Below, piece by piece: positions 1-16,707 of a stretch of DNA of 17,257 bases (position 1 is its first letter; the number at the start of each line of letters is the position of its first letter). The stretch spans positions 13,073 through 30,329 of the forward strand of contig DDCV01000022.1 in NCBI GenBank assembly GCA_002335845.1, written 5' to 3'. Position numbers and translations under genes: made by a program. Source of the DNA: Rickettsiales bacterium UBA1997. Its GTDB lineage: Bacteria; Pseudomonadota; Alphaproteobacteria; Rickettsiales; UBA1997. A model generated the notes under the pieces. That model had not been told where the DNA came from and did no database searches. It saw only the letters and a list, made by a program, of their open reading frames with translations.

Positions 1-347
1 GCATTATTTAAAGCGATAAGAAACGATAGGCATGTCCCATGAATACTAAAGCAAGGGACATTTTTTATTTTGAGTTCTCTTTGAAAAAATACAGAAGTAT
101 CTGGAATAGTTTGTTTTGGGACTCCTGAAGCATTAATAATTAAATCTGGAATACCGTTACCTGCTAATGCTTTTCTAGCAGCAACTGCTCCCATTTCATC
201 TACATCTATTTCAGATATTCTTCTTTCCTCAACCCCTGTCTTTGCAATTATCCATTCAGTACTTTCATTTATAAATTTAGCAGTTGTTTTTGATTTTTCA
301 ACTTTAGGAGGCAAATATATTCCTGACCCTGTTATTTTAATACTCAT
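1..347 (-). CDS. FabH-like 3-oxoacyl-ACP synthase III (KAS III) family protein, partial
   Basis: Only the first 115-116 codons lie in the window; the gene runs off its left edge. The ATG at 347 gives an N-terminus MSIKITGSGIYLPP, followed by WIIAKTGVEERR (residues 32-43), the typical thiolase-fold opening of KAS III enzymes. The nucleophilic cysteine is C106 in the motif HGTCLSFL, near the position of the FabH active-site Cys (about 112). Family members condense an acyl-CoA or acyl donor with malonyl-ACP or a second acyl thioester. The surroundings of the Cys (HGTC) differ from the AACSGF seen in housekeeping FabH, which suggests a specialised paralogue with its own acyl substrates rather than the fatty-acid initiation enzyme. 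The catalytic His and Asn would be in the missing C-terminal half. It is the last visible gene of the sulfotransferase-START-barrel operon, 13 nt after the barrel gene's stop. Family certain; specific role unknown. Confidence 0.85.
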   Translation of the reverse strand, partial: MSIKITGSGIYLPPKVEKSKTTAKFINESTEWIIAKTGVEERRISEIDVDEMGAVAARKALAGNGIPDLIINASGVPKQTIPDTSVFFQRELKIKNVPCFSIHGTCLSFLIALNN

Positions 348-360
348 CCTAGGGTCTCAA

Positions 361-1800
361 TTAAAAATTGAATTTCAAATTTGCGCGGACATGAGAAAAA
401 TCTTCCATTATATTAATTCTATAGTCTTCCCCTAATGGGTGTTTATTATTGCCTTTTATTTTTGTGTAACCTAAAACAAGGTGAAGATTCGTTTTTATAA
501 TATACGATGTTTCAAATGAAAATATGAGACCGGGGACTGAACCATTAAAATTGGTATTATCAATATCTAAAAGTGAAGAGCCTGAAATAGTTAGTTGCTC
601 ATTTGCAAATGTTTTATTTAAAGATATAATAATAGCTCTTTTAGTGAGGACACCAAGAGATGATCCATATCCAGGTGTAAATATATTTTTTGGATCTAAT
701 TCATCTATACTAATCTCTAGGTTGGGTATTGATATATCATTATCAATAGGTAAGCTGTCAGCTTGATAATCAAGCGTGTCGTAAGCAAATAATTGTCCTA
801 TAAGTTTTATATCAAAAGGTAAATCAACTTCAAGTTGTAATGTTGCTTGAAAATAGTTGGCTTTTTCTTTTAGGGGATATGAGTAGTGCAAGGAATCATA
901 AATTTGTGATTGATAAGAACTTGTCCTTAACAAAAAGTCATCAGCGCTATTTTTATCTGAGGTATTAAAAAATGCGGCATCCCCTCTAATTGTTGTATTT
1001 CCTAAAAATAAAGTAGATCCAAAACCAAGCATTTTCGTTTTTCTATATCCATAAATTATGTCAATAATCGAAAAACTTTTATCTGGACCAAATGCATAGA
1101 CATTGACTCCTGATAAGTTGAATAAGCGATCATATCCTTCAAAATAATTGATTGAAATATCACCAACGCCAAATGTTCTTGCAGCATAAATCCCAAGCTC
1201 TAGGGGCATTCCTCTTATTTTCATAAACTCTTCACTAGAAGGATTCGAGGGAAGTTTAATCGGAAAATCATCATTTTCTTGAGGTGTCCTGTGCGTATTG
1301 TGCAAGGGAGATAAAGTGAAACCAAATTTGTAATTATTTAGGTATAAATCGATAGCTGAAGAAAACACACCAAGCTTTTTATCTGAACCACTTTCAAATG
1401 TATAGTAGTAATCATATGGACTGACAACATCAATCGGACTATTTTCATCAACATTACCCCAACTATGAATCATTTTACCAATTTTGAACTCACCCCATGA
1501 TGTAAACATTTGTAAATAAAACTCACGCATATCTAAGCTAAAGTCAGTGGGCGATTGGTCTGATAAAAAGTGGGTAGATTCTCTTAACTTATGTTCAACA
1601 TCTATGTTAGATCGAAATAAAATATCACTGCTTTCATGGTCCACATTAAAACGAAGCAACCTGTAAGGTAGGTTTATTAAAGAGCCATCTGATAATCTCG
1701 AAATATAATTAAAATCTACAAAGCCACTAATTGTGTTAGAGGATTGACTTATAGCGAAATTAAATAAGAAGATTATAAAAAGAATTTTATTTAAGCGCAT
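361..1800 (-). CDS. DUF1302-like outer-membrane beta-barrel protein
   Basis: A 479-aa exported protein. Residues 1-18 form a signal peptide (MRLNKILFIIFLFNFAIS), and the chain ends in phenylalanine (LKFNF), as expected for a C-terminal strand recognised by the BAM complex. Alternating hydrophobic/polar strands run through the whole length. Residues 90-130 carry the recognisable block DMREFYLQMF ... GKMIHSWGNVD ... SPIDVVSPYD. This matches the DUF1302 family pattern (REaYv ... lRiGkQ..vWG..D ... DvvnP.D). DUF1302 barrels are often encoded with MMPL/RND pumps and are thought to be their outer-membrane partners; an MMPL gene lies in the divergent operon here. The ATG overlaps the end of the upstream START gene by 14 nt, so translation is probably coupled. 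Family assignment is from motif and topology; a generic porin is the alternative. Confidence 0.75.
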   Translation of the reverse strand: MRLNKILFIIFLFNFAISQSSNTISGFVDFNYISRLSDGSLINLPYRLLRFNVDHESSDILFRSNIDVEHKLRESTHFLSDQSPTDFSLDMREFYLQMFTSWGEFKIGKMIHSWGNVDENSPIDVVSPYDYYYTFESGSDKKLGVFSSAIDLYLNNYKFGFTLSPLHNTHRTPQENDDFPIKLPSNPSSEEFMKIRGMPLELGIYAARTFGVGDISINYFEGYDRLFNLSGVNVYAFGPDKSFSIIDIIYGYRKTKMLGFGSTLFLGNTTIRGDAAFFNTSDKNSADDFLLRTSSYQSQIYDSLHYSYPLKEKANYFQATLQLEVDLPFDIKLIGQLFAYDTLDYQADSLPIDNDISIPNLEISIDELDPKNIFTPGYGSSLGVLTKRAIIISLNKTFANEQLTISGSSLLDIDNTNFNGSVPGLIFSFETSYIIKTNLHLVLGYTKIKGNNKHPLGEDYRINIMEDFSHVRANLKFNF

Positions 1801-2395
1801 ATGTTATCCATTGTATGATTTCATTTCCTTGAGTTTTCCAAGCTCTTTGCAGAGCAAAATCAGGAAAATCACCTAAAAGTTCTCCATTCCAAGTATAACT
1901 AAGCAAGGTCTCATTTTGATTTTTAGGGGAAAGCTCCCATTTGCCTGCTGCATTTATTAATCGTATATAGTTTTTATTTAATGGAGCATTTTTATGGTTT
2001 CCAGAAACGAAAGAAAACTCCCATTCAGAATCTTTTCTGCTTTTTTTATGCTTTATAACATAATCTCTATCTGCAAGTAGAAAAGGCATGTCAAGCATTA
2101 TATGAACTGTGTTTTCTCCTAAAATTTTAACTTCATGAATTCTTCTAAATACTTTTGGGTAGTGTTCTACATCTTCAATGATTTTAGCTATTGGTTCAAT
2201 TGAATATGGTAATGAAGAACTCACTTTGCATATTGGAAATCCTTGATAATTTGTCCATTTGATTTCAATATCACCTTCTTGAATGATATTCCACTCTATT
2301 GGACTCTTAAAATCTTTTAGATTTAACTCGCTATAATAGACCCCTAGGTTTAGAAAAAATAAAAGCGTAAATAAATTTGATTTTAAGTGTCTCAT
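1787..2395 (-). CDS. Secreted START-domain (SRPBCC) lipid-binding protein
   Basis: A 202-aa protein with an N-terminal hydrophobic signal segment (about residues 7-21) and a single START/Bet v1-like domain of about 170 residues. Diagnostic stretches are IEDVEHYPKVFRRI (73-86) and MPFLLADRDYV (103-113), the latter matching the START signature MPFPLSDRD. START domains enclose one hydrophobic ligand (sterol, phospholipid, fatty acid or polyketide) in a helix-grip cavity. The signal segment places this one in the periplasm or attached to the inner membrane, where it could hand a lipid between membrane proteins. Its ATG overlaps the stop of the sulfotransferase gene (ATGA, 4 nt) and its 3' end overlaps the barrel gene, so the three are translationally linked. 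Ligand unknown; no catalytic residues evident. Confidence 0.82.
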   Translation of the reverse strand: MRHLKSNLFTLLFFLNLGVYYSELNLKDFKSPIEWNIIQEGDIEIKWTNYQGFPICKVSSSLPYSIEPIAKIIEDVEHYPKVFRRIHEVKILGENTVHIMLDMPFLLADRDYVIKHKKSRKDSEWEFSFVSGNHKNAPLNKNYIRLINAAGKWELSPKNQNETLLSYTWNGELLGDFPDFALQRAWKTQGNEIIQWITYALK

Positions 2396-3477
2396 TTATT
2401 CAAAAATGTCTCATATATTGATGAACAATCTTTTTTTATTCTCTCTTCAGATAGTCCAAACTTTTTTAAATCATACTTGTGCTTACTTTTATAATTTTTC
2501 TGTTTTTCAGCGGTATTTTTAATTTCATTTCTAAGTTCTTCTGAAGGTTTATGGTTTGTAAAAATAAAAATATCGTCCATAAGTTTTTCAAAATTTTCCA
2601 TCATTTGATCATATCGAACTATCATTACCCTTGATTTGTCAATTTTATTATTTTCCCAATCATTATTAAATCGTATTAACAGGGTAATGAGTGCATTATA
2701 AAGTCTTTCGATATATTTTTCTCTAATATTTGTGTCCAAACTCCAAAATCCAAACCTTTTATCAAGGACACCCGTTACTAAACTTAAACCTGATGGGATT
2801 ACACTTAATGGATCTCTTATCATATATAAGATTCTAGAATCAGGAAATCTTTTTTGAAAAGAGGGAAGATTTGTGCTTAGAGAAAATAGTTTTCCTATGT
2901 AAGGTAAATCTTTTTTATATGTTTTCCTTGCCCAAACATTTTCATACCAATCAAAATCCCTTTTACTAGTATCTCTGTGTTCTGGATCAAAATATTTAAA
3001 AAAATCTTCATCTGCAAATGAGAACAAAAACCCATAGAGGAAGAAGCCATCAAAATATCTAAAAAATAGACCAACGTCATCTGTTTCGATAGATGTTAAA
3101 CTTGTTTTATGTGCTTCTGTTGAATGGTGACGGGCTGGGCTTAATTTTTCTAAGACTGGTAAAAATGGTTTTATTACTTTTTGAAGAATTATCGAAGGAT
3201 AAATTAATTGCCAAAGTTGAGACCCTTTACCGAGGCCACTATTAATCAAATATCTTTGTAAAAAAGTAGTGCCAGATCTAGGATTTCCAACAATTACAAT
3301 TGGTTTATGCAGGCTAGGTTTTCGAGCTATTTTATAAAAGATTTTATCAATAAATAAGAAAATTGAAACAATCAATCGCATCATACTTAGAAAAAACCCT
3401 GTAATAATTGGGCTGAACCATGCCCCAAATGTGTTTCCAACAATCTTATAGGCTTCTAATTTTCTGTTTATATTCAT
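2392..3477 (-). CDS. PAPS-dependent sulfotransferase (Sulfotransfer_3-like) with N-terminal membrane segment
   Basis: A 361-aa protein. The 5'-phosphosulfate-binding loop is PIVIVGNPRSGTTFLQRYL (59-77), with PRSGTT at 66-71. The 3'-phosphate-binding motif is RDPLSVIPS (221-229), preceded by the usual beta strand RILYMI. SIETDDVGLFFR (129-140) fits the Sulfotransfer_3 pattern. These enzymes move the sulfonate from PAPS to a hydroxyl or amine. A hydrophobic stretch at about 22-45 suggests the enzyme sits on the inner face of the cytoplasmic membrane, as expected for a lipid or lipid-linked acceptor. It is the first gene of the minus-strand operon (START, barrel and KAS III follow) and is divergent from an ASST gene. 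No clear Shine-Dalgarno precedes the ATG at 3477. Enzyme class is secure; the acceptor is unknown. Confidence 0.88.
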   Translation of the reverse strand: MNINRKLEAYKIVGNTFGAWFSPIITGFFLSMMRLIVSIFLFIDKIFYKIARKPSLHKPIVIVGNPRSGTTFLQRYLINSGLGKGSQLWQLIYPSIILQKVIKPFLPVLEKLSPARHHSTEAHKTSLTSIETDDVGLFFRYFDGFFLYGFLFSFADEDFFKYFDPEHRDTSKRDFDWYENVWARKTYKKDLPYIGKLFSLSTNLPSFQKRFPDSRILYMIRDPLSVIPSGLSLVTGVLDKRFGFWSLDTNIREKYIERLYNALITLLIRFNNDWENNKIDKSRVMIVRYDQMMENFEKLMDDIFIFTNHKPSEELRNEIKNTAEKQKNYKSKHKYDLKKFGLSEERIKKDCSSIYETFLNK

Positions 3478-3630
3478 AGCTTGTTATGTATTTGGAATTT
3501 AATTGTATAAAAATTGTTATAATTTTTGAAAGAATTTATTTAACTATTTGACGCATTAAGAGTCTAATAGTTAAAATTTTATTAATCAAATAATTGAGCG
3601 GTCAAAATTTTATTTAATTGGAAAATAACT
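3478..3630. promoter_or_regulatory. Divergent intergenic region between the two operons
   Basis: These 153 nt separate the sulfotransferase start (minus) from the ASST start (plus) and must hold the promoters of both units unless transcription enters from outside. The stretch is very AT-rich, with no ORF and no obvious long inverted repeat that would mark an operator. A shared control region would allow the two halves of the cluster to be expressed together. Confidence 0.6.
3548..3577 (+). promoter_or_regulatory. Candidate sigma70-type promoter for the ASST-MMPL-LolA operon
   Basis: TTGACG at 3548-3553 (5 of 6 with TTGACA) is followed after 18 nt by TAAAAT at 3572-3577 (5 of 6 with TATAAT). 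The ASST start codon is 53 nt further on. In DNA this AT-rich such matches arise by chance, and the promoter consensus of this lineage is not known, so the call is weak. Confidence 0.3.
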
Positions 3631-5115
3631 ATGAATTATAAAATTAATATTTTGTTATTACTGACATTAGTATTTAAAGCAGATTTAAATGCAGAAGTGT
3701 TTGATGGCTACACTCTTTTTTCGCCTACTGGAGGTGGGCCTAGCGGCGCTACAGGGGGTACTAGTTATCTTTATGATAATGATTATAATATTATTCATAC
3801 ATGGGTTCATTCTAGAGGTGCTGCAAGCATGCCATATCTACTGCCTGACAGTTCAATCATATATCCTTTTAGAGTAGAAAGTCCCACTATGAGTGCCGGA
3901 GGCGTAGGTGGCGGAGTCGCTCACATTGCTTGGGATGGGACTATATTATGGGAATACATTATTTCAAATCAAACCTATCAACATCATCATGATGTTCAGC
4001 CTCTTCCAAATGGGAATATATTGGTTATCGCATGGGAGAAAAAAACAGCAACTGAAGCATACGCTATGGGTAGAGTGTCTCTTGATAACCCATTAAATGA
4101 GATGTGGTCAACTGCAATCTTAGAGCTTGAAATGACGCCGCCAAATGGTGCAAATATTGTTTGGGAGTGGCACTTATGGGATCATTTAGTTCAAGATTCA
4201 GATCAAAGTTTACCAGGTTATGGAACAGTGTCTGCTCATCCACAATTAATGGATATTAACTATGGTGAAGTCGGTGGAGGAGGAGGGCCAGGCGGTAGCA
4301 ATGCTGACTGGATGCATATTAATGCGATAGATTACAATCCTTTTCTAGACCAGATTGTAATTAGTTCTAGACATCAAAATGAAATATACATAATTGATCA
4401 TAGTACAACTACCGCTGAAGCGGCAGGACATACTGGCGGAAACTCTGGCAAAGGAGGCGATTTCTTATATCGCTGGGGTAATCCCTCAGCATATGATCGA
4501 GGCTCGAATTCGTCTCAAAGATTAGATAGTCAGCATGGAGTAAACTGGATCAAAGAAGGGTATCCTGGGCAAGGAAATTTAATTTTATTCAATAATAATT
4601 ATGGAAATTTAACCTCTGCTGTTTTTGAAATTTCGCCACCTTTGAACTCAGACAGTACTAATTATATTATCAACGAAACAGAGCCTTTTGGCCCAAATGA
4701 ATTAGAGTGGATGCATACAGGTGATTTTCATTCAAATGTTCAAAGTGGAGCATTTAGATTATCAAATGGTAATACTCTTGTTTCAGTTGCTGATGATGCT
4801 ACAATCTTTGAAGTCGATTCGTTAGGTAATACGGTTTGGAATTATGAGTACCCAGGGGCAAACATAATGATAGCTAGATCACAGAAATATTCAATTGATT
4901 TTTTTGGAGGAAGTGACTCAACAGGTTTCCCCGATTACATTATTGGCGATGTAAACTTTGACTCTTCCAATGATGTCTTCGACTTGATATACGTTGTCGA
5001 TATGCATTACGGTTTTTATCCAAAAACTCCACCTGCAGATATCAATGAAGATTCAGAAGTAAACTTTCAAGATGTAATGGCTCTAATTTATCAAGTAATG
5101 AACTATCTTCGTTGA
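3631..5115 (+). CDS. Exported arylsulfotransferase (ASST)-family protein with C-terminal dockerin-like repeats
   Basis: A 494-aa protein with a signal peptide (about 1-21, ending LNA) and a beta-propeller of the ASST family. ASST enzymes transfer sulfate between phenolic esters and phenols in the periplasm without PAPS. The active-site set is visible: HHHD at 118-121 followed by LPNGN, H229 in WMHINAI, R247 in SSRHQN and H302 in SQHGVNW. H229 to R247 is 18 residues, the same as H356 to R374 in E. coli AssT, and H302 corresponds to the sulfated H436. Glycine-rich loops lie at 33-43, 90-95 and 215-222. Two DxNxDxxxxxxD calcium-loop repeats follow at 440-451 and 470-481, a dockerin-like pair. 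The stop overlaps the MMPL start codon. The true donor and acceptor are unknown, and a non-transferase propeller role cannot be excluded. Confidence 0.83.
   Translation: MNYKINILLLLTLVFKADLNAEVFDGYTLFSPTGGGPSGATGGTSYLYDNDYNIIHTWVHSRGAASMPYLLPDSSIIYPFRVESPTMSAGGVGGGVAHIAWDGTILWEYIISNQTYQHHHDVQPLPNGNILVIAWEKKTATEAYAMGRVSLDNPLNEMWSTAILELEMTPPNGANIVWEWHLWDHLVQDSDQSLPGYGTVSAHPQLMDINYGEVGGGGGPGGSNADWMHINAIDYNPFLDQIVISSRHQNEIYIIDHSTTTAEAAGHTGGNSGKGGDFLYRWGNPSAYDRGSNSSQRLDSQHGVNWIKEGYPGQGNLILFNNNYGNLTSAVFEISPPLNSDSTNYIINETEPFGPNELEWMHTGDFHSNVQSGAFRLSNGNTLVSVADDATIFEVDSLGNTVWNYEYPGANIMIARSQKYSIDFFGGSDSTGFPDYIIGDVNFDSSNDVFDLIYVVDMHYGFYPKTPPADINEDSEVNFQDVMALIYQVMNYLR
4948..5112 (+). other. Dockerin type I-like repeat pair at the ASST C-terminus
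   Basis: Residues 440-451 (DVNFDSSNDVFD) and 470-481 (DINEDSEVNFQD) each fit the 12-residue calcium-binding loop of dockerin repeats, and each is followed by a helix-like hydrophobic segment (LIYVVDMHY, VMALIYQVM). In cellulosomes, dockerins dock onto cohesins. In marine FCB bacteria such tails are common at the ends of secreted proteins and their partner is often unknown. No cohesin-like gene is visible here. Confidence 0.72.
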
Positions 5116-7412
5116 AATCGAAAAATAAAGAATTCTCTATCAAATTTTGGATTACCAGGAAGGTAATTGAAAACCCCTTAAAGTCTATTTTATTCCCCCT
5201 TGCCTTTACCTCAATTTTTGGATTGGGCATGACATTTATTGTTGTTGATGATGATATGCTCGCAATGCTTCCAAATAATATGAGCTCAAAGCTTTCCTGG
5301 GATGCGGTGCAGGATGAATTTGGAAGCACAGAATCTATTTTTATCGCATTTGGTTATAAAGATAAAACGATCTTTAATAAAAGCTCTTTTTCTGATCTTT
5401 GGAAATTAACAAATGAATTAGAATCTCGACCTGAGATAAAAAAAATTACAAGCCTTTCAAATTTGCCAAAAATTGAAAATGTTGATGGTTTTTTAGAGGT
5501 CCACTCATTGCAACCAAGCGAAGAACTAGACGACATTCAAATAAATGGAATAAAAAAATATGTATATAATAATCAGTCTATTAGAGCGAGGTCAATAAGC
5601 AAAGATGGCAATTATTTCAATATAATGGTACAGCCAAATGACAGTATTGCTCATAATGTTGTTAGAGATATAGTCGTGGAGATAGGCGATAGCTTATTAT
5701 CTAAAAATTATGAAATACATTATGGTGGGACTGCATACATTACTGGGTCTGTCCCTGGTATGATAAAAAATGATATATCAAAACTACTTGGGGTTGGTCT
5801 TGTTTTGATGAGTCTGATTTTATTGGTTAACATTCGGGATTTATTTGCGGTAGGGATGATATTCTCTGTCATTATCCAATCTCTAATTGTTATGGCTGGA
5901 TTGATGGGGTGGGTAGTTTATTTGACAGGATCAGAAAATTTTTATTTCACCATTATAAATTCATCGATGCCAATAATTTTACTTACGATTGCAAATTCTG
6001 ATGGAGTTCATGTTGTTACAAAATTTTTTAAAGAGATGAGGCATAATGGCAATATAAAAAAATCAATAGCCAAATCGATAGACACTCTATTCGTGCCGAT
6101 ATTTTTAACTAGTGTTACCACAATTGCTGCGTTTCTTACTCTTTATTTTGCGCCAATAAATCAACTAATGGGTTATGGGATATGCCTAAGTGCTGGGATA
6201 TTATATGCTTTTATTTTAAGTCTTACTTTTTTACCAGCAGCAATGTCGTTAAAGAGATGGGATTTAAATTCGAAAGCAATATCGCAAAATGGGTATTTAG
6301 AAAATATAATTTCTAAATTTGGCAAATTAGTAATTTCAAAACCAAAATCAATTTTAGTAGTTGGAATGATAATTATGTTTATTGGAACTGCGGGATTATC
6401 ATTGCTAAAAGTGGATGTTAATATTGCGAATTTTTTTAAAGAAGATACTGATTTTAGGAAAAGTATTGATTTTATAGATCAAGAGATGACGGGTACAATG
6501 GATGTACGTATTAGAGTAGAAGCGCCTATCAAGGATCCTAATACATTGAATGAAATGCAGGAGATGCAAACATTATTGAACAGCAACCCAAAGGTAACAA
6601 CTAGCTATTCCATAGTGGATGTTGTTAAACAAATGCATCGCATACTTATAGATGATAATCCTGAATTTGAAATTGTTCCTAAAGATGAAAAAAAAGTAAG
6701 CAATCTTTTAATGATGTATTCAATATCCGGAGATCAAGATGACTTAAATACAATAGTTGATTATAATTATAAAGTGGGTCTAATAACTGCTTTAAGTCGC
6801 GTTATGAGTACAGAAGAAATTATTCAGTTCGTAAAAAAAATTGAAGATCAGGTATATGACTTTAAGCATATTAGTAATGCGTCAATAACCGGAATGGCTA
6901 TTGTGATTAGAGATTTAATTTATTTGGTTATTGAATCTTCAGTAATAAGTATTTTTTCATCAGTTATACTTATTTGTCTAATTACATCAATATTTTTTAA
7001 GAACTTTTCATGGGGCTTCCTTTCAATAGTTCCACTTGTCACGGCAGTCTTAATTAATTTTGGCTTTATGGGTATTGCAGGTATTCATTTGAGTCATGTA
7101 ACAGCACTTTTGTCATCAGTTATTATTGGTGTTGGTGTCGATTTTTCTATTCATTACATTTACCAATACAGAAGATTAATCAAGGATAAAGTTCGTAATG
7201 GGATATCAAATAAAGTTATAAATGAGGTTGGTTATCCAATCGTATTAGATGCAGCATCGAATATGTCTTTTGGAGCTTTATTATTTTCTACTTTCATTCC
7301 TGTCCAATACGTTGGGGGTTTAATGGTGTTTGCTATGTTTTCTACAGCTTTCGGCACATTAACATTGCTTGCAGCTTCAGTTGAATTATTAAAGACTAGT
7401 TATTCAAAATGA
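5112..7412 (+). CDS. MMPL/RND-family lipid exporter
   Basis: A 766-aa inner-membrane protein with the duplicated RND/MMPL plan. TM1 is at about 25-45 and is followed by a periplasmic domain (about 46-220). A five- or six-helix bundle lies at about 222-380, then TM7 (about 412-432), a second periplasmic domain (to about 610) and a final helix bundle to the C-terminus. The first bundle carries NSDGVHVV (D297); the second carries GVGVDFSIHYIYQYRR (D677), the conserved acidic site of the proton relay. Relatives such as HpnN and mycobacterial MmpL proteins move hydrophobic lipids from the inner membrane outward. The only start that keeps TM1 is TTG at 5112, overlapping the ASST stop (TTGA), so translation is probably by re-initiation. 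Its stop overlaps the LolA-like gene's ATG. Function as lipid exporter is strong; the cargo is inferred from neighbours. Confidence 0.88.
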   Translation: MKSKNKEFSIKFWITRKVIENPLKSILFPLAFTSIFGLGMTFIVVDDDMLAMLPNNMSSKLSWDAVQDEFGSTESIFIAFGYKDKTIFNKSSFSDLWKLTNELESRPEIKKITSLSNLPKIENVDGFLEVHSLQPSEELDDIQINGIKKYVYNNQSIRARSISKDGNYFNIMVQPNDSIAHNVVRDIVVEIGDSLLSKNYEIHYGGTAYITGSVPGMIKNDISKLLGVGLVLMSLILLVNIRDLFAVGMIFSVIIQSLIVMAGLMGWVVYLTGSENFYFTIINSSMPIILLTIANSDGVHVVTKFFKEMRHNGNIKKSIAKSIDTLFVPIFLTSVTTIAAFLTLYFAPINQLMGYGICLSAGILYAFILSLTFLPAAMSLKRWDLNSKAISQNGYLENIISKFGKLVISKPKSILVVGMIIMFIGTAGLSLLKVDVNIANFFKEDTDFRKSIDFIDQEMTGTMDVRIRVEAPIKDPNTLNEMQEMQTLLNSNPKVTTSYSIVDVVKQMHRILIDDNPEFEIVPKDEKKVSNLLMMYSISGDQDDLNTIVDYNYKVGLITALSRVMSTEEIIQFVKKIEDQVYDFKHISNASITGMAIVIRDLIYLVIESSVISIFSSVILICLITSIFFKNFSWGFLSIVPLVTAVLINFGFMGIAGIHLSHVTALLSSVIIGVGVDFSIHYIYQYRRLIKDKVRNGISNKVINEVGYPIVLDAASNMSFGALLFSTFIPVQYVGGLMVFAMFSTAFGTLTLLAASVELLKTSYSK

Positions 7413-8173
7413 TTAAACTATTTATTATCTGCTCGATTCAATTTTTTCTTTTAATAAATAATTTATCAGCACAAACTGGTTACGAATTAGCTAAGAAGCT
7501 TGATAATAAAGATAAGCCTCAAAATATGACTAGCCGAATTTCGATGACATTGACTAATGCTAAAAATAAATCTCGTAAAAATGTAATGATATCAAAAACA
7601 GCAAGCCAGAGCCAAAAACAGATGATTTGGGTTTTAGAGCCTAAGTCTGATAGAGGTATGTCATTTTTGAAAATCGAGCGTGAAGACAGGAAGACTGAAA
7701 TGCGTATATGGTTGCCTGCCTTTAACAAAATTCGAAGAATTAATGCAAACAGAAGAAGTAATTCTTTTATGGGTTCAGATCTTAGTTATGAAGATATGAT
7801 GAGTCGGTCACTTGATGATAATACATATTTAAGACTTGAAGATGATCAGATTGGGGGAGAAGAATGTTATGTTTTGGAAGTTATACCAAAAAAAAGCATT
7901 AATACATCGTACTCAAAACATATAACATGGGTTTCAAAAGAAAACTTTCAAATTGTACAGGAAGCTTCCTATGATAAAAAAAGTAAGCTAAAAAAAATTA
8001 AAAACTTCCATTATGCCTTTGTAAATAATTATGAGATAATATCAAAAATTCATGTTAAAGACTTGCAGAAAAAGCACAAAACTGATATTTATTTTGACCA
8101 GGTTAAAGTAGATGCAAAAATGGATGAAAAAATATTTCAAGAAAAAAGTTTAAAACGGTTACCGCTTCATTAA
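7409..8173 (+). CDS. LolA-like outer membrane lipoprotein-sorting protein (PF17131-type)
   Basis: A 254-aa periplasmic protein with signal peptide MIKLFIICSIQFFLLINNLSA and cleavage before Q22. The block LEPKSDRGMSFL (76-87) and the hallmark FMGSDLSYEDMMS (120-132) are typical of the LolA-like family regularly encoded beside MMPL pumps. The fold is an open beta-barrel with a hydrophobic cavity, suited to carrying a lipid chain between the pump and the outer membrane. The ATG overlaps the MMPL stop (ATGA). The gene ends 6 nt from the convergent dehydrogenase stop. It should not be taken as the housekeeping LolA, which has a different sequence signature. Confidence 0.88.
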   Translation: MIKLFIICSIQFFLLINNLSAQTGYELAKKLDNKDKPQNMTSRISMTLTNAKNKSRKNVMISKTASQSQKQMIWVLEPKSDRGMSFLKIEREDRKTEMRIWLPAFNKIRRINANRRSNSFMGSDLSYEDMMSRSLDDNTYLRLEDDQIGGEECYVLEVIPKKSINTSYSKHITWVSKENFQIVQEASYDKKSKLKKIKNFHYAFVNNYEIISKIHVKDLQKKHKTDIYFDQVKVDAKMDEKIFQEKSLKRLPLH

Positions 8174-8179
8174 ATAATA

Positions 8180-9445
8180 TCAATAAAAAACAGGCCCTTT
8201 TTCATTTTTAATTTTTTTGATCCATTCCGGTATATTTTTTTTATCTGCTTTCATTCTTTCTGTTGATGAAGAAAAACCAATCATATCCCATATCTCAAAT
8301 GGACCAAAGCGCCATCCAAAACCCCACTTCATAGCATTATCTATATCCTTATAAGAATCTGATATTTCATGTACTCGATTTGCACAATAAAGAAGCATTT
8401 CAGATAGAATCTCCCAGAAAAATTTTCCATATTTTGAGTTCAGGTTTATTAAGGTATTTATTTGTAGAGAAACATTGCTTCCTTGAACAATCTCCTCTTT
8501 CAATCCTAAATCTACTTTTTTCATGGTTCTGTACTTTTTATTATTGAGATCAAAAACTAGAATATTCCCATTAGTATCTTTTTTATAAAAACCGCCTTTT
8601 GCTTTTTGACCAAGGTTTCCATTAGCAATGAGAATTTCCATAACTTCGGGTATTTTAAACATTTCTATAGATTCATCATGAGTAGACTTTTTATAAGTGG
8701 TCATTGCTACACTTTTTAAGACATCGAGGCCAATTATATCTGCTGTCCTAAATGTTGCGCTTTTAGGTCTTCCGCAAATAGATCCTGTTAGTTCATCGAC
8801 TATTTCGATATCAATTTCCATTTTTAAGGCAATATTTATTGTAGACATTAGACCAAAAATGCCAACGCGATTTCCAATGAAATTTGGGCAATCTTTTGCG
8901 GGAACAATTCCTTTATCTAATATATTTTTTCCAAAATTGGATATTGTATTATAGGTTTCTAAGGAAGTCTCTTCACCCCTAATTAATTCCAATAAATGCA
9001 TGTACCTAGGGGGGTTAAAAAAATGAGAGACCATAAATTTATTTTTTAGTTCTGGAGAAAACTTTTGTGAAAGCTCTTTAAGAGTTATTCCTGACGTATT
9101 TGTTGTTAAAATAGCAGATTTTTTGAGAAGAGGTAATATCGTATCATAGACTTTAAGTTTTATATCAAGGTTCTCAGCAACGGCTTCTAATACCCAGTCT
9201 ACTTGCGTAATTTTTTCAAGATCTGATTTATAACTACAAGGAACTATTAAATTAATCTTTTCAGGACTTTCTAATGGAGCAGGTTTTAAAGTTTTTAAAC
9301 GGTCCTTACCATTTGTTGCTAATTTATTAGAAATATCAAATAAATATGTTTTTATCCCTTTATTAGCAAAAACAGCGGCTAGTTGTGCCCCCATTATTCC
9401 AGCACCTAAGACAGCAATACTTTTAAATGGATTATTTGGAGGCAA
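8180..9445 (-). CDS. 3-hydroxyacyl-CoA dehydrogenase (FadN-like, no enoyl-CoA hydratase domain)
   Basis: A 421-aa cytosolic NAD-dependent dehydrogenase that oxidises 3-hydroxyacyl-CoA to 3-ketoacyl-CoA in beta-oxidation. The Rossmann motif is VLGAGIMGAQLA (12-23), and TNTSG is at 115-119. The catalytic pair is H141 in SHFFNPP and E153 in LLELIRG, 12 residues apart as in human HAD. C-terminal 3HCDH domains follow, including KWGFGWRFGPFEIWDMIG near the end. Full-length FadN-type proteins (roughly 700-800 aa) continue into an enoyl-CoA hydratase domain; this one stops at the linker (GPVFY). The start is TTG at 9445, because an in-frame TAA lies 9 nt upstream and the next Met is inside the NAD loop. 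It is the last gene of the LOG-amidohydrolase unit, 23 nt after the preceding stop. Confidence 0.88.
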   Translation of the reverse strand: MPPNNPFKSIAVLGAGIMGAQLAAVFANKGIKTYLFDISNKLATNGKDRLKTLKPAPLESPEKINLIVPCSYKSDLEKITQVDWVLEAVAENLDIKLKVYDTILPLLKKSAILTTNTSGITLKELSQKFSPELKNKFMVSHFFNPPRYMHLLELIRGEETSLETYNTISNFGKNILDKGIVPAKDCPNFIGNRVGIFGLMSTINIALKMEIDIEIVDELTGSICGRPKSATFRTADIIGLDVLKSVAMTTYKKSTHDESIEMFKIPEVMEILIANGNLGQKAKGGFYKKDTNGNILVFDLNNKKYRTMKKVDLGLKEEIVQGSNVSLQINTLINLNSKYGKFFWEILSEMLLYCANRVHEISDSYKDIDNAMKWGFGWRFGPFEIWDMIGFSSSTERMKADKKNIPEWIKKIKNEKGPVFY

Positions 9446-9468
9446 GTGGATTTAGGTCGTTATTTTGA

Positions 9469-10791
9469 TTACTGATTAATTTGGCCAAGTCTTCGGTATT
9501 TTTCTTGATATTTTTTATATAACATTTTTTGATGATTATTCAGGTCGACTTCTCTACCTTGAATGAAGGCCATTAAAATTTTGGGATTCATTTCCATGGG
9601 TGGTATATCAGAGATAAAGAAAGTAGCATCTTTGCCAATATCAAGGGAACCAACCATATCATCAATATCAAGAATTTCTGCGGCACTTAACGTTATGGAT
9701 CTAAGGGCTTCGCTTTTTTCTAAGCCATATGCAGCAGCTCGCATAGCTTCGTTTGGAAGGTTTCGGATATTTCCATCATGGGGGTATCCTATTCTAGTAC
9801 TCAAACAAAATTGCACACCGCCTTTCTGAAGTAGATAGGGTATTTTGTATGGCAAGTGTATAGGCTCAAATCTCCTTGCTGGAATTTTTTCAACTTTATC
9901 TAAAATAACAGGAATATTATTTTTTACAAGAAAGTCGGTTAGTCGCCAGCTGTCTGCGCCACCAACAATGATAATTTTCAAGTCGTTTTCTTTTGCCCAA
10001 TCTACGGCAGATATAATTTGTCTAGCTTCAGCAGCATGTATGTAAATCCCCTTCTTTTCAACAATGAAAGGAATCATTGATTCAAGTCTTAGATCAACTT
10101 TCTGCCTATCTTTGGATAATCGATCTCTTTGTTTTATTATTTGGAAGTATGCTCTTACATCTCGAACCATATCATCAAGTTCTCTGATTGATTTTTGTAT
10201 CTCTTCACGCTGTTTTTTTTCAGATTTTTTTATATTCTTACCATACTTGATGCTCATAGCTGGCCAATTTATGTGTAGGCCTGATGGATGCTTTAAAGTT
10301 GCATGCTCCCAAGTCCAACCATCAAGCATCATGACTGAAGATTGACCTGAAACTCGCCCACCAGCTGGAACGGAATTGGCAATAAGGACGCCATTTGACC
10401 TAGTGATAGGTATAAGTTCAGAATCTGGATTATAACTAACATTTGCTTTCACATTTGGGTTGATTGAGCCACTTTCAGCAAAATCATGTGTTTGACGAAC
10501 TAAACCAATCTCCACTAATCCAATTCTAGTTAAAGGCGCGATGTAACTAGGAACTATGTGTTTACCAAAAACATCGTAAACATCTGTTTCTGGCGATGCC
10601 ATAATATTTTTTTCAATTCTAACTATTTTACCTTTTGAAAATAATATGTCATAGCCTTCGAGAACTTCAGTAGAAACAGTATGGAGGATACCACCTTTTA
10701 AGAGTATAGGTCTTTTTTGCTCTTTTCCAGGAATCTGATCATTCGATAACAAAATAGAAAAAGTAAAAATTAATAGTATGCTTTTATTCAT
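9469..10791 (-). CDS. Exported amidohydrolase-superfamily protein lacking the metal-binding HxH (likely non-canonical)
   Basis: A 440-aa protein with signal peptide MNKSILLIFTFSILLS and an amidohydrolase (imidazolonepropionase-like) barrel. The C-terminal block VGSLDIGKDATFFI is typical of the superfamily. The strand-1 motif that should read GLID.H.H is replaced by VPSYIAPLTRIGLVE, the later metal His is replaced in IIIVGGADSW, and the terminal Asp motif is replaced by LSTRIGYPHDGN. A single His remains in YIHAAEAR. It therefore probably does not hydrolyse by the usual binuclear metal mechanism and may be a structural partner of the 1006-aa protein upstream. I chose ATG at 10791 over GTG at 10800 because AGGTG lies 6 nt before the ATG. 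The start overlaps the end of the upstream gene by 8 nt. Confidence 0.82.
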   Translation of the reverse strand: MNKSILLIFTFSILLSNDQIPGKEQKRPILLKGGILHTVSTEVLEGYDILFSKGKIVRIEKNIMASPETDVYDVFGKHIVPSYIAPLTRIGLVEIGLVRQTHDFAESGSINPNVKANVSYNPDSELIPITRSNGVLIANSVPAGGRVSGQSSVMMLDGWTWEHATLKHPSGLHINWPAMSIKYGKNIKKSEKKQREEIQKSIRELDDMVRDVRAYFQIIKQRDRLSKDRQKVDLRLESMIPFIVEKKGIYIHAAEARQIISAVDWAKENDLKIIIVGGADSWRLTDFLVKNNIPVILDKVEKIPARRFEPIHLPYKIPYLLQKGGVQFCLSTRIGYPHDGNIRNLPNEAMRAAAYGLEKSEALRSITLSAAEILDIDDMVGSLDIGKDATFFISDIPPMEMNPKILMAFIQGREVDLNNHQKMLYKKYQEKYRRLGQINQ

Positions 10792-13700
10792 TGTAGACAC
10801 CTGTATTGTCTAAAATATCACAATTGTGACCCTGGTGATACATTTTTGAATTTATACTTTTACTGGTATTGGTACCAGTACCGCCTTTAATCGATAATAC
10901 TTTTTGGATGATATCTTTTCTTAATTGTTCGTCTCTATCTTCAAGTATTTTATTTTCAGTTTTAGAATAGTACCTAATTCCATCAATCCAAGTTTCTTCA
11001 ACTTTACTATAAACTGATAAAGGTTCACCATCCCATATTACAAAATCAGCATCTTTTTTTGGCTCTAAAGACCCAACAAATTTATCTATTTTTAATTGTT
11101 TTGCAGGATTAATAGTTACCAGTTTTAGCGCCTCATTTGGATCAAGATTCCCATATTGAATCGCTTTTGCTGCTTCGGTATTTAATCGCCTTGCAAGCTC
11201 ACTATCATCTGAATTAAAAGATACTATAACATTGCTTTTTGCCATCATACTTCCATTGTAAGGAATTGCGTCAATAACTTCATATTTATATTGCCACCAA
11301 TCTGAAAAAGTAGATGCTCCTGCTCCATGCTCTGCAATTCTATCTGCAACTTTATAGCCTTCAAGAACATGTTGAAACGTCGCAATTTTAAATCCAAAAT
11401 CTTCTGCAACTCTAGTTAGCATTAATATCTCATCTTGCCTGTATGAGTGACAATGGACCAATCTTTTTCCTTCAAGGATTTCTAAGAGCGCATCAAGTTC
11501 AAGGTCTTTTCTAGGCGGAACTTTTGTCCGTTGATATTTTGAATTTCGATAATAGTTGTCGTTCTCGTGCTTGTAATCAAGAGCGGCTCTAAAAGCATCT
11601 CGAATAACTTGCTCAACGCCCATTCTAGTTTGTGGATATCTATTTGTGCCACTCCAATTAGATTGTTTTACGTTTTCACCTAACGCAAACTTTATTCCCT
11701 CTGGTGCACCTTTGAATAATAAACTGTTAGCATCAGCTCCCCACCGCAGTTTAATTACAGCATTTTGCCCACCAATAGGGTTTGCCGATCCATGCAATAC
11801 ATTAGCTGTGGTTAGTCCACCACCAAGTTGTCTATAAATATTTATGTCTGTTGGGTCTAGCACATCTTTCATTCTAACCTCAGAGGTTATATACTGAGTA
11901 CCTTCATTAATACTACTAGCTGCCGAATGACTATGACAATCAATAAGTCCTGGGGTTACATGTTTACCTGCTCCTTCGATAACAATGGCACTACCCTGGG
12001 GGACTGTAATATCTGGTGCAACTTGCTCTATTTTTCCGCCAACAAACAATATATCCCATTCAGCTAGAGTCCCTTTTGGTCCACATGTCCATAATGTTGC
12101 ATCATTAATTAATATGGCATTCGGTTGAGGATAATCCTTAAACAGACCATATGCCCCATCAGGCGAGAAGACGGATAATGAACTAGGCGACTCGGGCTCA
12201 AGCTCTTTACCAACAGTACTAATTTTAATATCTGCCTGGAAAGGTAGAGACTCATTACCCAGGTTTTTTGTTGTTCCAATTATTTGAGATTTTGTTAATT
12301 CGCCGTTGAATGTTATTGAACCCTTTTGTCCGATATTTTGGCCATCGATTGTAAATGAAATAGATGATTCGAAAATATCGATATTGTATAATTCAACTGT
12401 TTTTCCTTGAAATAATATTGATCCTTTATAAACGATATTTCGAGGGTCATTTGTTCTATTTTTTAGAATGTCTTCAATTTTTAATTCATAGGCGGAACCA
12501 TTATACTTTAAAGACCAATTACCTAAAAACGAAGGTGTTTTTTTTGAGGCGATATATATTTCTTCTCCTTCAATCCACAGGCTGACAACTTTTGAAGTTG
12601 GCTTAAAGTAGTCACCGTCAACAATCACAAGATTTGCATCATATCCTTTGGCAACTCTACCCATCGATTTTTCCAATCCTAAAGCTTCAGCTGGTTGCGT
12701 TGTTAGTGCTGCAAGTACAATATCTTTGCTAAGGCCTCGAGCAATAATTTTTTCGAGGTTTTTACGGAATTCAGATTTTTTTGATAAACGATGACTTGTA
12801 ATGGAAAAATCATGGCCAGCCCTATTAAGATAAGATAGATTGTCCGGAGCCACATCCCAATGTTTGAGTTCTGCAGTTGAATATTGAAGGTCGCTCATAT
12901 ATTTGGTTACACTGGGCTTTGAAGGGAAATCAATAGGCATAATGAAAAAAGGTTTAAGTTGATTAAACTGGTTCAGTTCTCTATACTCATAACCACTACC
13001 AAGAATCCAAGGATTAAGTTTAAACTCTTTTGATATGTTCATTAATCTTGAAGCGGAATTATCATCTGACGATATAAATGCAAATGGTTTTTCAAGAGCT
13101 CTAGTAAGGCCTAAACTTTCTAGAGAAAAATTTGAAGCTAAGGGTCTATTTTCTGCGGGGTATGACTGAACAATTTCTTGCGATTTTAAATACCACTCTG
13201 AATCATAAAAAGTCTGTCTTATGTGAGCAATCACCCCGAGAAGAGACCTGGGGTAAGTTCTTTTGCCCTTAGGCTGATACTTAAAATCAATAACTTGAGC
13301 AACTGAAGAGTTTATCGTTTTAGGGCTTTTAGATAAGTTCACAATACCTGTTTGCCCTCTAAATATTCCTTGTTTTGGTGCTAAGTGAGCTGTCGTAAAG
13401 CCCAAGGATCTTAATTCTTTAATATGTTTCTCTTTAATATCAAAATTATCAACAGATCTGTATTCAGGCCTAACTTTAGAATCCCAATGCCTTCTTTCAT
13501 TTTTTGATTTTGAATTGTAGGATTCAGTTTCGAGCCATGTTTCAATAAAACCAGCATAAACATGCGCGCCTTGGAGATTGATTTCATAAGCATCTTTAGG
13601 CGATTTAATGTATCTACCAACAGCTTCAATCTTGCCATTTCGTATTACAATAGAGCCATCTTTAATGAAATCACCAGGCGACGTATGAATCATTGCATTT

Positions 13701-13804
13701 GTTAGTGTCCATACCTTAGGCCTGTTTTTATGTAAATCTTTGGTTGGCTCTGTTTGCGCAAAGAGGAATAGCGGTAAAAGTATTATGACTGTATTTCTCA
13801 ACAT
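10784..13804 (-). CDS. Exported double-domain amidohydrolase (one intact, one degenerate barrel)
   Basis: A 1006-aa protein with a signal peptide (MLRNTVIILLPLFLFAQ). It holds two amidohydrolase-superfamily barrels in tandem. The N-terminal one (about 25-420) has AHVYAGFIETWLETE where the HxH should be and FISSDD and ILGSGYE where other metal His are expected, so it looks inactive. A beta-rich linker (about 425-540) follows. The C-terminal barrel (about 550-970) has the full set: H624 and H626 in DCHSHS, H784/H786 in VHCHSY, H812 in FQHVLEG and D866/D867 in NSDDSE. It should be a metal-dependent hydrolase of cyclic amides, isopeptides or similar in the periplasm; relatives are annotated as imidazolonepropionase-like. 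The gene starts 1 nt after the LOG stop. Exact substrate unknown. Confidence 0.87.
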   Translation of the reverse strand: MLRNTVIILLPLFLFAQTEPTKDLHKNRPKVWTLTNAMIHTSPGDFIKDGSIVIRNGKIEAVGRYIKSPKDAYEINLQGAHVYAGFIETWLETESYNSKSKNERRHWDSKVRPEYRSVDNFDIKEKHIKELRSLGFTTAHLAPKQGIFRGQTGIVNLSKSPKTINSSVAQVIDFKYQPKGKRTYPRSLLGVIAHIRQTFYDSEWYLKSQEIVQSYPAENRPLASNFSLESLGLTRALEKPFAFISSDDNSASRLMNISKEFKLNPWILGSGYEYRELNQFNQLKPFFIMPIDFPSKPSVTKYMSDLQYSTAELKHWDVAPDNLSYLNRAGHDFSITSHRLSKKSEFRKNLEKIIARGLSKDIVLAALTTQPAEALGLEKSMGRVAKGYDANLVIVDGDYFKPTSKVVSLWIEGEEIYIASKKTPSFLGNWSLKYNGSAYELKIEDILKNRTNDPRNIVYKGSILFQGKTVELYNIDIFESSISFTIDGQNIGQKGSITFNGELTKSQIIGTTKNLGNESLPFQADIKISTVGKELEPESPSSLSVFSPDGAYGLFKDYPQPNAILINDATLWTCGPKGTLAEWDILFVGGKIEQVAPDITVPQGSAIVIEGAGKHVTPGLIDCHSHSAASSINEGTQYITSEVRMKDVLDPTDINIYRQLGGGLTTANVLHGSANPIGGQNAVIKLRWGADANSLLFKGAPEGIKFALGENVKQSNWSGTNRYPQTRMGVEQVIRDAFRAALDYKHENDNYYRNSKYQRTKVPPRKDLELDALLEILEGKRLVHCHSYRQDEILMLTRVAEDFGFKIATFQHVLEGYKVADRIAEHGAGASTFSDWWQYKYEVIDAIPYNGSMMAKSNVIVSFNSDDSELARRLNTEAAKAIQYGNLDPNEALKLVTINPAKQLKIDKFVGSLEPKKDADFVIWDGEPLSVYSKVEETWIDGIRYYSKTENKILEDRDEQLRKDIIQKVLSIKGGTGTNTSKSINSKMYHQGHNCDILDNTGVYNE
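10798..10802 (-). promoter_or_regulatory. Ribosome binding site that decides the 440-aa amidohydrolase start
   Basis: On the minus strand AGGTG stands 6 nt before the ATG at 10791-10789. It includes the alternative GTG (10800-10798), which cannot serve well as both start and ribosome site, so the ATG is preferred. The site lies inside the coding end of the upstream gene. Confidence 0.5.
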
Positions 13805-13805
13805 A

Positions 13806-14618
13806 TTAAAAGTTTGGTCCTGTTAATTTATAGGCTTCAATATATTTGGTGATGTAATCGTATGAATCATCAATATCATCTGATATGTGAAACAAATCTA
13901 AATCAGATTCTGAAATAGTTCCGCAATCAACAAGATAATCCCAGTTTACTACATTATTCCAAAAATCTGAGCCGTAAAGGACTATTGGTAGCTTCTTTTT
14001 GATCTTTTCTGTTTGAATTAATGTTAGGAGCTCCATCACTTCATCCAAAGTCCCAAACCCGCCTGGCCAGACAACAAGTGCCTTTGCTAAATAAATAAAC
14101 CAAAACTTTCTCATAAAAAAGTAATGAAATTTTAAATCTAGACCATTTGAAATATATTGGTTACTTGTAGCTTCAAAAGGGAGTGAAATTGTCAAACCTA
14201 CAGAAATACCGTTTGCTTCTTTAGCGCCTTTATTGGCTGCTTCCATAATCCCACCTCCACCACCAGAGGTGATAATATATCTAGATTTTTTGTTATCAAG
14301 GTTTTTGCTCCAAAGAGTGAGTTTTTTTGACAACTGTCGAGCTTCTTCATAAAACCTGCTCATTTCAACATCTTTTTGTGCTCTTTTCTCTTCTTGATCA
14401 GATGCAGAACCACTTAATTTTGACAAAATTTTGGTTGATTCAGACTCTGATTTAATTCTTGCTGACCCAAAAAATACGATAGTATCGTGAATTTTATTTT
14501 CGGTGATTTTCTTTAATGGCCCATAATATTCTGAAAGTATCCTCATTGAACGTCCTTGTGGGCTTCCAAGGAAATCGTCATTATAATAAAATCTGTTTTT
14601 TCTTTTGTCTTTTGACAT
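13806..14618 (-). CDS. LOG-family protein (nucleotide 5'-monophosphate phosphoribohydrolase-like)
   Basis: A 270-aa protein. The Rossmann-type fold shows IVFFGSARI (47-55), SGGGGGIMEAANKGAKEA (118-135) and the family signature PGGFGTLDEV (185-194), matching PGGxGTxxE. LOG enzymes cleave the N-glycosidic bond of nucleoside monophosphates to release base and ribose-5-phosphate. The old label 'lysine decarboxylase' for this family is wrong. At 270 aa with an extra basic N-terminus (MSKDKRKNRFYYNDDF) and a charged insertion at about 55-85, it belongs to the longer bacterial subgroup. It leads the minus-strand unit with two exported amidohydrolases and a dehydrogenase; no functional link to them is obvious. 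Start ATG at 14618 has AAAGG about 9 nt upstream. It is divergent from the small lipoprotein gene. Confidence 0.9.
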   Translation of the reverse strand: MSKDKRKNRFYYNDDFLGSPQGRSMRILSEYYGPLKKITENKIHDTIVFFGSARIKSESESTKILSKLSGSASDQEEKRAQKDVEMSRFYEEARQLSKKLTLWSKNLDNKKSRYIITSGGGGGIMEAANKGAKEANGISVGLTISLPFEATSNQYISNGLDLKFHYFFMRKFWFIYLAKALVVWPGGFGTLDEVMELLTLIQTEKIKKKLPIVLYGSDFWNNVVNWDYLVDCGTISESDLDLFHISDDIDDSYDYITKYIEAYKLTGPNF

Positions 14619-14706
14619 TCTTATAACCTTTTATGAAATTGACTTGAATTTAAAACAAAATTTTAAAATTAGTTCACTTGTATGATGGAATTCAGGCATC
14701 TTATTT

Positions 14707-16243: not shown

Positions 16244-16247
16244 AATC

Positions 16248-16652: not shown

Positions 16653-16684
16653 GTATCTAGTTTTATATGATTTTTCAATGATTT

Positions 16685-16707
16685 TATTTAGATTTTATTT
16701 CTAAATA
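16685..16707 (+). repeat. Inverted repeat abutting the rpe start codon
   Basis: TATTTAGA (16685-16692) and TCTAAATA (16700-16707) are perfect 8-nt inverted arms around a 7-nt loop. The right arm includes the A of the rpe ATG. The stem is AT-rich and weak and lacks a T-run, so it is not a good terminator. It could slightly mask the start in mRNA or be chance in AT-rich spacer. Confidence 0.3.

Follow-up and report, generated by a model that had tools for sequence, protein, structure and literature searches.

The 17,257-nt stretch of contig DDCV01000022.1 analysed here (Rickettsiales bacterium UBA1997, assembly GCA_002335845.1; hereafter the window) begins with two divergent sets of genes that share one intergenic region (Table 1). 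One set is headed by a sulfotransferase (ST) of the type that depends on 3'-phosphoadenosine-5'-phosphosulfate (PAPS), and the other by ASST1, a propeller of the arylsulfate sulfotransferase (ASST) family. ST is followed by a START-domain protein, an outer-membrane barrel and a FabH-type ketosynthase (KS), ASST1 by the exporter MMPL1 and the carrier LolA1. An earlier sequence-only reading named these seven genes and proposed that they make an acyl product, sulfate it and move it to the outer membrane or outside. All seven are found where it placed them, on both strands as described, and so is the 153-nt region between the two sets. The near-universal overlap of neighbouring genes also holds for four junctions (ST/START, ASST1/MMPL1 and MMPL1/LolA1 by 4 nt each, START/barrel by 14 nt), and the barrel and KS genes are separated by a 13-nt gap. 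A scan of the divergent region for sigma-70 promoters returned 4 sites, not above the 3.1 expected from shuffles.

The gene for KS is cut by the window edge. The DNA to the left of position 1, which the sequence-only reading had marked for inspection, contains the complete KS and, facing it, genes for a leucine-rich repeat (LRR) protein, a second ASST of 691 aa (ASST2), a fused ATP sulfurylase/adenosine-5'-phosphosulfate (APS) kinase, and a second carrier and pump, LolA2 and MMPL2. ASST2 matches PF05935 with 79 bits, and both ASST2 and the LRR protein carry a Por_Secre_tail.

Table 1 Genes and features of the cluster in window coordinates. Window position equals 16985 minus the position on contig C95.
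Feature	Position	Strand	Basis
FabH-type ketosynthase (KS), cut by the window edge	1..347 (reading frame 3-347)	minus	PF08541 86 bits, PF08545 57.5 bits
KS in full, 320 aa	contig C95:16638-17600 = L008 7638-8600		
Outer-membrane beta-barrel, DUF1302-like, predicted, 479 aa	361..1800	minus	Signal-like N-terminus by eye; relatives and structure model
START-domain lipid-binding protein, predicted, 202 aa	1787..2395	minus	Signal-like N-terminus; PF01852 in relatives and structure model
PAPS-dependent sulfotransferase (ST), 361 aa	2392..3477	minus	Sulfotransfer_3 (PF13469) 59.2 bits, cut-off 27
Divergent ST/ASST1 intergenic region, 153 nt	3478..3630		
ASST1, arylsulfate sulfotransferase-family propeller	3631..5115	plus	Arylsulfotrans PF05935 77.6 bits, cut-off 24.2
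MMPL/RND-type inner-membrane exporter (MMPL1), HAE3-like, 766 aa	5112..7412	plus	PF03176 97.6 bits, cut-off 20.5
LolA-like periplasmic carrier (LolA1), 254 aa	7409..8173	plus	PF17131 LolA_like 164.8 bits, cut-off 30

The cluster is a conserved unit

Among 130 genomes of the order, 35 contain a close ST orthologue (identity of at least 51%; hand count). The START profile is found in 34 of the 130, all of them within these 35; in the remaining genome, G119, the contig stops within ST and START is not visible. Gene order was compared in 33 fetched loci from 32 genomes and in our own; G093 and G121 carry a close ST and their loci were left out. ASST1 is divergent to ST in 33/33 loci with upstream DNA, at a spacing of about 107-266 nt from alignment end to alignment end, and START is the next gene downstream of ST in every testable locus (33/33). 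In 23 of the 24 loci where this can be tested, MMPL1 lies beyond ASST1 and shares its strand. Where 9 kb downstream of ST are available (n=21), the barrel is present in 21, ASST2 in 20 and the LRR protein in 20 loci. The ASST2-LRR pair is inverted into the ST operon in nine of the 33 fetched relatives (L061, L063, L064, L066, L068 and L071-L074), resulting in the order ST-START-ASST2-LRR-barrel, mostly followed by KS, which identifies ASST2 as a member of the unit.

As a control, seven loci were fetched from a pool of 20 to 25 distant ST paralogues; the paralogues in these seven have 26-29% identity, and none of the seven loci contains any partner family. ASST1, ST, START and their partners form one conserved unit, not a chance arrangement. 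The sequence-only reading would have given up the pairing of the two halves if they were not syntenic in relatives; synteny holds in all 33 loci that allow the test. In the small-genome group f9 (L075-L080), the distant ST paralogue is surrounded by short genes, a neighbourhood that is itself conserved and wholly different.

In a scan of named genomes, the best 80 of 181 ST relatives were kept, including 46 Marinimicrobia loci that overlap the synteny set. The best relative of our ST among the 80 is 93% identical, and many of the next ones belong to Candidatus Marinimicrobia or Neomarinimicrobiota. In 44 of the 46 Marinimicrobia loci, the gene directly upstream of ST is ASST1. Of the two exceptions, L121 lies at a contig edge, and in L137 ASST1 is located downstream of KS, on the same strand and not divergent.

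Two families of sulfotransferase

ST contains the P-loop GNPRSGTTF and the motif RDPxxxxPS, which we take to be the 5' P-loop and the 3'-phosphate motif of PAPS-dependent sulfotransferases, as well as one hydrophobic stretch near residue 25 in the hydropathy plot. Its Pfam matches at E 0.01 include Sulfotransfer_3 and Sulfotransfer_1 and no Stf0 model.

The active-site residues described for EcAST, the ASST-family enzyme of E. coli, are H252, H356, N358, R374, H436 and T501, and the enzyme is described as following a ping-pong mechanism via sulfated His436 (PMC13426309). H120, H229, N231, R247 and H302 of ASST1 align with the first five. Both ASST1 and ASST2 keep five of the six residues, as do 23/23 ASST1 sequences (one ambiguous letter aside), 26/26 ASST2 sequences and 14 of 22 ASSTs from other phyla. 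T382 of ASST1 was considered as a counterpart of T501 and rejected, as the T501 position in the alignment holds no Thr. The alignments comprise our own proteins together with 22 of 25 full-length ASST1 orthologues (L042, L047 and L069 left out), 31 of 32 ST (L042 left out), 31 of 32 START (L042 left out), 28 of 30 barrel (L042 and L073 left out) and all 17 KS orthologues; the rows left out were near-identical, fused or overlong.

An Arg equivalent to R374 of EcAST is missing in the ASST just upstream of KS in L169 (1096), L170 (6394), L176 (6355) and L180 (5898), and from the sole ASST of L158 (11114) and of L164 (16933). Most other ASST paralogues in L169, L170, L176 and L180 keep all five residues. 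The paralogues lacking this Arg are perhaps non-catalytic partners.

A profile search of solved structures indicates a dockerin-like repeat at the C-terminus of ASST1 (E 9e-4); there is no Pfam dockerin match at E 0.01. L069 (5112-7466, genome G001) encodes a longer ASST1 orthologue whose C-terminus matches the corresponding end of the LRR protein tagged for the type IX secretion system (T9SS), as if the secretion tail took the place of the dockerin-like repeat. Signal-like N-termini can be recognized by eye in ASST1, ASST2, START, the barrel and LolA, and the hydropathy threshold flags ASST2 and LolA1 only. These N-termini predict a location outside the cytoplasm for all five proteins. PAPS should not be available there, so an exported ASST would need another sulfate donor.

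Supply of PAPS

The family function of fused ATP sulfurylase/APS kinases is PAPS synthesis. The fused enzyme to the left of the window is the sole strong APS-kinase match of its genome (195.9 bits; the other match scores 19.6). No match for PAPS reductase was found in this 82%-complete genome, and the PAPS is therefore unlikely to be destined for reduction by the PAPS-reductase family. Strong matches to that family (at least 100 bits) are rare in the order, occurring in 5 of 130 genomes by hand count, one of which has ST. The fused PAPS maker is located inside the cluster of L008, L044, L045, L104 and L171, and, in the scan of named genomes, within 9 of the 46 Marinimicrobia loci. Along with the APS kinase that three Ignavibacteria-class loci have beside ST, it strengthens the sulfation step that had been proposed for the seven genes.

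The ketosynthase

The Cys-His-Asn triad of KS (C106/H247/N277) is invariant in 18/18 orthologues, and is kept in 21/21 sequences of a wider set. By score, the nearest solved structures are MxnB (4v2p, 175.4 bits) and CorB (4yuc, 174.3 bits), ahead of the best FabH-named entry (2ebd, 155.5 bits) and 1hn9 (127.4 bits). The separate FabH of the same genome served as a control and scores 303 bits to FabH 5bqs, 141 to MxnB and 120 to CorB. On the housekeeping FabH model TIGR00747 (cut-off 292.1), the cluster KS falls below with 210.1, while the separate FabH lies above with 392. Judged by these bit scores, KS appears closer to MxnB/CorB-type chain-joining ketosynthases than to housekeeping FabH. 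MxnB, the protein in 4v2p (PMC5724707), and CorB are described as required to form an alpha-pyrone from two chains (PMC4578411, PMC5724707). KS residue 81 is hydrophobic (I/V/L) in 21/21 sequences checked; in our reading it would correspond to V94, reported in place of the PpyS Glu (PMC4578411).

Predicted transport and lipid-handling proteins

The START protein of the window matches no Pfam family at E 0.01. Of the 32 START proteins aligned, 17 reach PF01852 with an E value no higher than 0.1 (best 7.5e-10), the window's own not being one of them. A structure model with a predicted local distance difference test score (pLDDT) of 88.8 was compared to known structures in Foldseek and retrieved StAR/START structures (best E 4.7e-11). 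The START identity given in the sequence-only reading is secured in this way, by the relatives and the model.

The barrel of the window is likewise without a Pfam family at E 0.01. Its model (mean pLDDT 77.5) leads in Foldseek to outer-membrane barrels and porins, with AlgE first (TM score ~0.5, root mean square deviation ~9). The model predicts a barrel fold, as had been proposed; the DUF1302 profile PF06980 is matched by 4 of the 29 barrels aligned, with E values no higher than 0.1 (best 8e-8), and not by the window protein.

MMPL1 scores 174.9 bits on TIGR00921, under the cut-off of 351.9, and 101.3 bits on the actII/MmpL-type model TIGR00833, far under its cut-off of 874.7. On the HpnN and BstA equivalogs it reaches 37.1 (cut-off 1100) and 19.4 bits (cut-off 1400). 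The MMPL proteins also have weak Sterol-sensing and Patched matches. Family assignments and models together support lipid handling and export as the likely role of START, LolA, MMPL and the barrel. In L010 (2943-12000), a gene run opens with a third MMPL pump; flavin amine oxidase-like, lipocalin-like and cyclopropane-fatty-acid-synthase-like proteins can be recognized by eye among its products.

Variable and neighbouring genes

Several relatives carry a TetR-like protein of ~205 aa between ASST1 and MMPL1 that is absent from the window (L065 5027-5650, with a Pfam TetR_N match; L051 7200-7820; L053 2396-3019; L062 10597-11208). Many loci contain a conserved, hydrophobic-looking protein of ~104 aa between MMPL2 and LolA2 (L063 3748-4062; L065 15498-15812), and the L065 copy has no Pfam match. 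Some loci add a second ketosynthase, or a DUF1302-like barrel beside LolA1. L070 (genome G099) encodes a formylglycine-type sulfatase between KS and the LRR gene (4928-6865; PF00884 213 bits); the C-terminus of the sulfatase has an F5/8-type match below threshold.

The right part of the window (8180-17255) encodes a 3-hydroxyacyl-CoA dehydrogenase, two amidohydrolases, a lysine-decarboxylase-like (SLOG) protein, an M19 dipeptidase, an OsmC-like protein and a ribulose-phosphate epimerase. As far as seen, this is ordinary metabolism.

Related loci in other phyla

Titles and gene content place 34 of the 80 kept ST loci outside Marinimicrobia; several of their contigs are short. LolA or MMPL (>100 bits) is found within 10 kb of ST in 6/34. 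In the Ignavibacteria loci L170 and L176, the gene order is ASST-ASST-KS-ST-APS kinase followed by four ASSTs, and another genome of the Ignavibacteria class (L195) has the same order with three. The ASST matches are confined to the cluster contig in both G130 (L170, 8/8) and G131 (L176, 7/7). In the KSB1 loci L169 and L180, KS-ST is flanked by ASSTs on either side (ASST-KS-ST-ASST). The KSB1 genomes G132 (L180) and G133 (L169) have 26 and 25 Arylsulfotrans matches, several of them adjacent. Within the class of G130, ST (E 1e-70) is present in 3 of 245 genomes drawn, a patchy occurrence that suggests block transfer.

A possible two-step sulfation relay

We propose that the cluster encodes a two-step sulfation relay spanning the cell envelope, a reading we consider evenly poised between right and wrong. 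KS would condense two acyl or ketoacyl chains. The lipid formed would carry an acidic hydroxyl of enol or phenol type and, given the MxnB/CorB-like sequence of KS, would probably be a 4-hydroxy-alpha-pyrone. The membrane-associated ST would then transfer sulfate from PAPS to the hydroxyl of this putative substrate; in the genus of the window, the fused ATP sulfurylase/APS kinase of the cluster can supply the PAPS. MMPL pumps, START, LolA-like carriers and the DUF1302-like barrel would take the sulfated lipid across the periplasm as far as the outer membrane, an export step suggested by the protein families and their likely locations. Finally, the exported ASST1 and ASST2, in which the sulfo-histidine active site is kept, would strip the lipid donor of its sulfate, and an outer or extracellular acceptor would receive it. 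This discharge step is modelled on the ASST ping-pong mechanism and on the precedent of caprazamycin.

The relay is the simplest reading that uses every conserved part. In a more tentative extension, the lipid would be to the outside of the cell what PAPS is to the inside. A sulfated enol or phenol lipid derived from the membrane, made inside by KS and ST and pumped across both membranes, would serve as a portable donor for surface-attached arylsulfotransferases in at least Marinimicrobia, Ignavibacteria and KSB1. The ASSTs could then sulfate cell-surface or environmental molecules. This wider claim is possible, and we hold it with more doubt than the relay itself.

A number of observations weigh against the relay. 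KS is found in just 12 of the 21 loci with 9 kb downstream of ST and is missing from 9/21, and a KS orthologue (E 1e-60) occurs in 20 of 130 genomes compared to 35 with a close ST (G096 carries a KS orthologue but no ST), so that many loci would need another source of the carrier. MxnB and CorB lead the best FabH entry by a modest margin (175 and 174 versus 155.5 bits). T501 of EcAST has no clear counterpart, the aligned position not being Thr in our reading of the alignment, and at least one of the five residues is gone from 8 of the 22 ASSTs in other phyla. ASST1-like genes are present in 17 of the 95 order genomes without a close ST (hand count), including G101, where ST may be lost at the contig edge (L099); extra copies are found in ST-bearing genomes too. 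APS kinase (at least 90 bits) occurs in 17/35 genomes with a close ST versus 34/95 without (hand count), and an order-wide coupling of APS kinase to ST, which we had considered, is unconvincing at these numbers. Outside Marinimicrobia, 15 of the 34 loci have a cluster-type KS (>300 bits) no more than 1.5 kb from ST, and 8 have an APS kinase or ATP sulfurylase (>100 bits) no more than 6 kb away; an ASST (>200 bits) is found inside 10 kb in 6 loci, which leaves 28 with no ASST nearby.

Some of the same counts would suit the sulfolipid end product that the sequence-only reading had in mind, in which the lipid made by KS and ST is placed in the outer membrane by MMPL, START, LolA and the barrel, and the ASSTs have a side activity, adding or moving sulfate on this lipid or on polymers of the surface. 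We consider this somewhat unlikely. The MMPL, LolA, START and barrel genes belong to the conserved part of the unit, ST orthologues outside Marinimicrobia mostly lack a nearby ASST (28/34 at the thresholds used), and there is a precedent for sulfated lipids in AdpST, described as acting on type III polyketide synthase (PKS) adipostatins with its own PAPS cassette (PMC12135136). However, a lipid end product leaves unexplained why Marinimicrobia keep two near-invariant ASSTs with intact active sites, and why the ASSTs of G130 and G131 are confined to the contig with KS, ST and APS kinase; ST also matches no Stf0 model at E 0.01. Since ASSTs with the five residues intact and with secretion- or anchor-like tags belong to the unit, the relay fits better than a sulfolipid as the sole end product. 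As first proposed, the sulfation and export of a lipid has partial support, and it does not account for the ASSTs.

It is improbable that the ASSTs scavenge, stripping sulfate from environmental aryl sulfates, with ST and KS forming a separate sulfolipid pathway that is merely co-regulated. Such a function would be consistent with ASST1-like genes located apart from ST in several genomes, with the many ASSTs of the two KSB1 genomes and with the sulfatase of L070. The PAPS synthesis genes near ST in several lineages point instead to the addition of sulfate, and the divergent pairing of ASST1 and ST is invariant (33/33). The sulfation and transport of a hopanoid, sterol or other terpenoid, with START and an RND pump acting as in Bst or HpnN transport, is very improbable: the START fold and the Sterol-sensing and Patched matches would suit it, but the HpnN and BstA scores lie far under their cut-offs, KS is left unexplained, and no squalene-hopene cyclase C-terminal domain was found in our 82%-complete genome, on which ground a hopanoid substrate was rejected.

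No description of the cluster was found in the literature searched, which excludes most subscription journals and other spellings. The principle of two-step sulfation is already known, and as far as we searched, the list of parts and their spread across the envelope are new. Passages of a 2026 review describe the physiological role of bacterial arylsulfotransferases as poorly understood and their natural substrates as not identified, with Cpz4 as a case of established role (PMC13426309). Here, ASST genes are tied to a PAPS maker, a PAPS-dependent ST and a carrier-type KS, which provides a concrete and testable candidate for the sulfate donor. If the relay is correct, two-step sulfation would no longer be confined to an antibiotic pathway and would reach into the envelope of uncultured marine bacteria and of distant groups. 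It would offer one route for PAPS-derived sulfate to molecules outside the cell, and suggest where enzymes located there obtain it.

Comparison with known systems

The mycobacterial Stf0-MmpL8 system, to which the sequence-only reading compared the cluster, is a sulfolipid system. Both combine a sulfotransferase with an MMPL-superfamily pump. The likeness does not extend to the families, as ST belongs to Sulfotransfer_3/1, with no Stf0 match at E 0.01, and the pump scores far under the actII/MmpL-type and HpnN cut-offs; ASST, START, LolA and barrel genes are present in our unit in addition.

EcAST (PDB 3elq) shares the ASST family and five of the six listed residues. It differs in that its Thr501 has no conserved counterpart here, and in the T9SS or dockerin-like tails and the genetic linkage to a PAPS-dependent ST that characterize the ASSTs of the cluster. 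The nearest structures to KS, MxnB and CorB, belong to the myxopyronin and corallopyronin pathways, and the triad is kept; the likeness is one of bit scores, which are moderate (~175).

The adipostatin cassette (adpPKS, AdpST, adpP1-P3) is described as bringing together a lipid polyketide enzyme, a PAPS-dependent ST and PAPS-making genes (PMC12135136), and our cluster resembles it in all three. In contrast, AdpST is described as the sole sulfotransferase there, and the polyketide enzyme is a type III PKS.

The closest parallel to the proposed relay is caprazamycin biosynthesis in Streptomyces (Cpz6 type III PKS, Cpz8 ST, Cpz4 ASST), where a triketide pyrone is described as being sulfated by the PAPS-dependent Cpz8 and then serving as the sulfate donor of Cpz4 (PMC4257720, PMC6731281). 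Both systems unite a pyrone-type polyketide enzyme, predicted in our case, with a PAPS-dependent ST and a PAPS-independent ASST, a likeness at the level of enzyme families. While caprazamycin uses a type III PKS, the cluster has a FabH/MxnB-type ketosynthase that is often missing; the cluster genes scanned in our genome, to which this search was confined, hold only the FabH-type condensing enzyme and no type III PKS. In contrast to caprazamycin, the ASSTs here have signal-like N-termini and T9SS or dockerin-like tails, and the unit contains exporter, START, LolA and barrel genes; envelope proteins point to a two-membrane cell. The feature common to both, the clustering of a gene for a PAPS-dependent ST with one for an ASST, is found here in 33 of 33 testable loci, as divergent neighbours.

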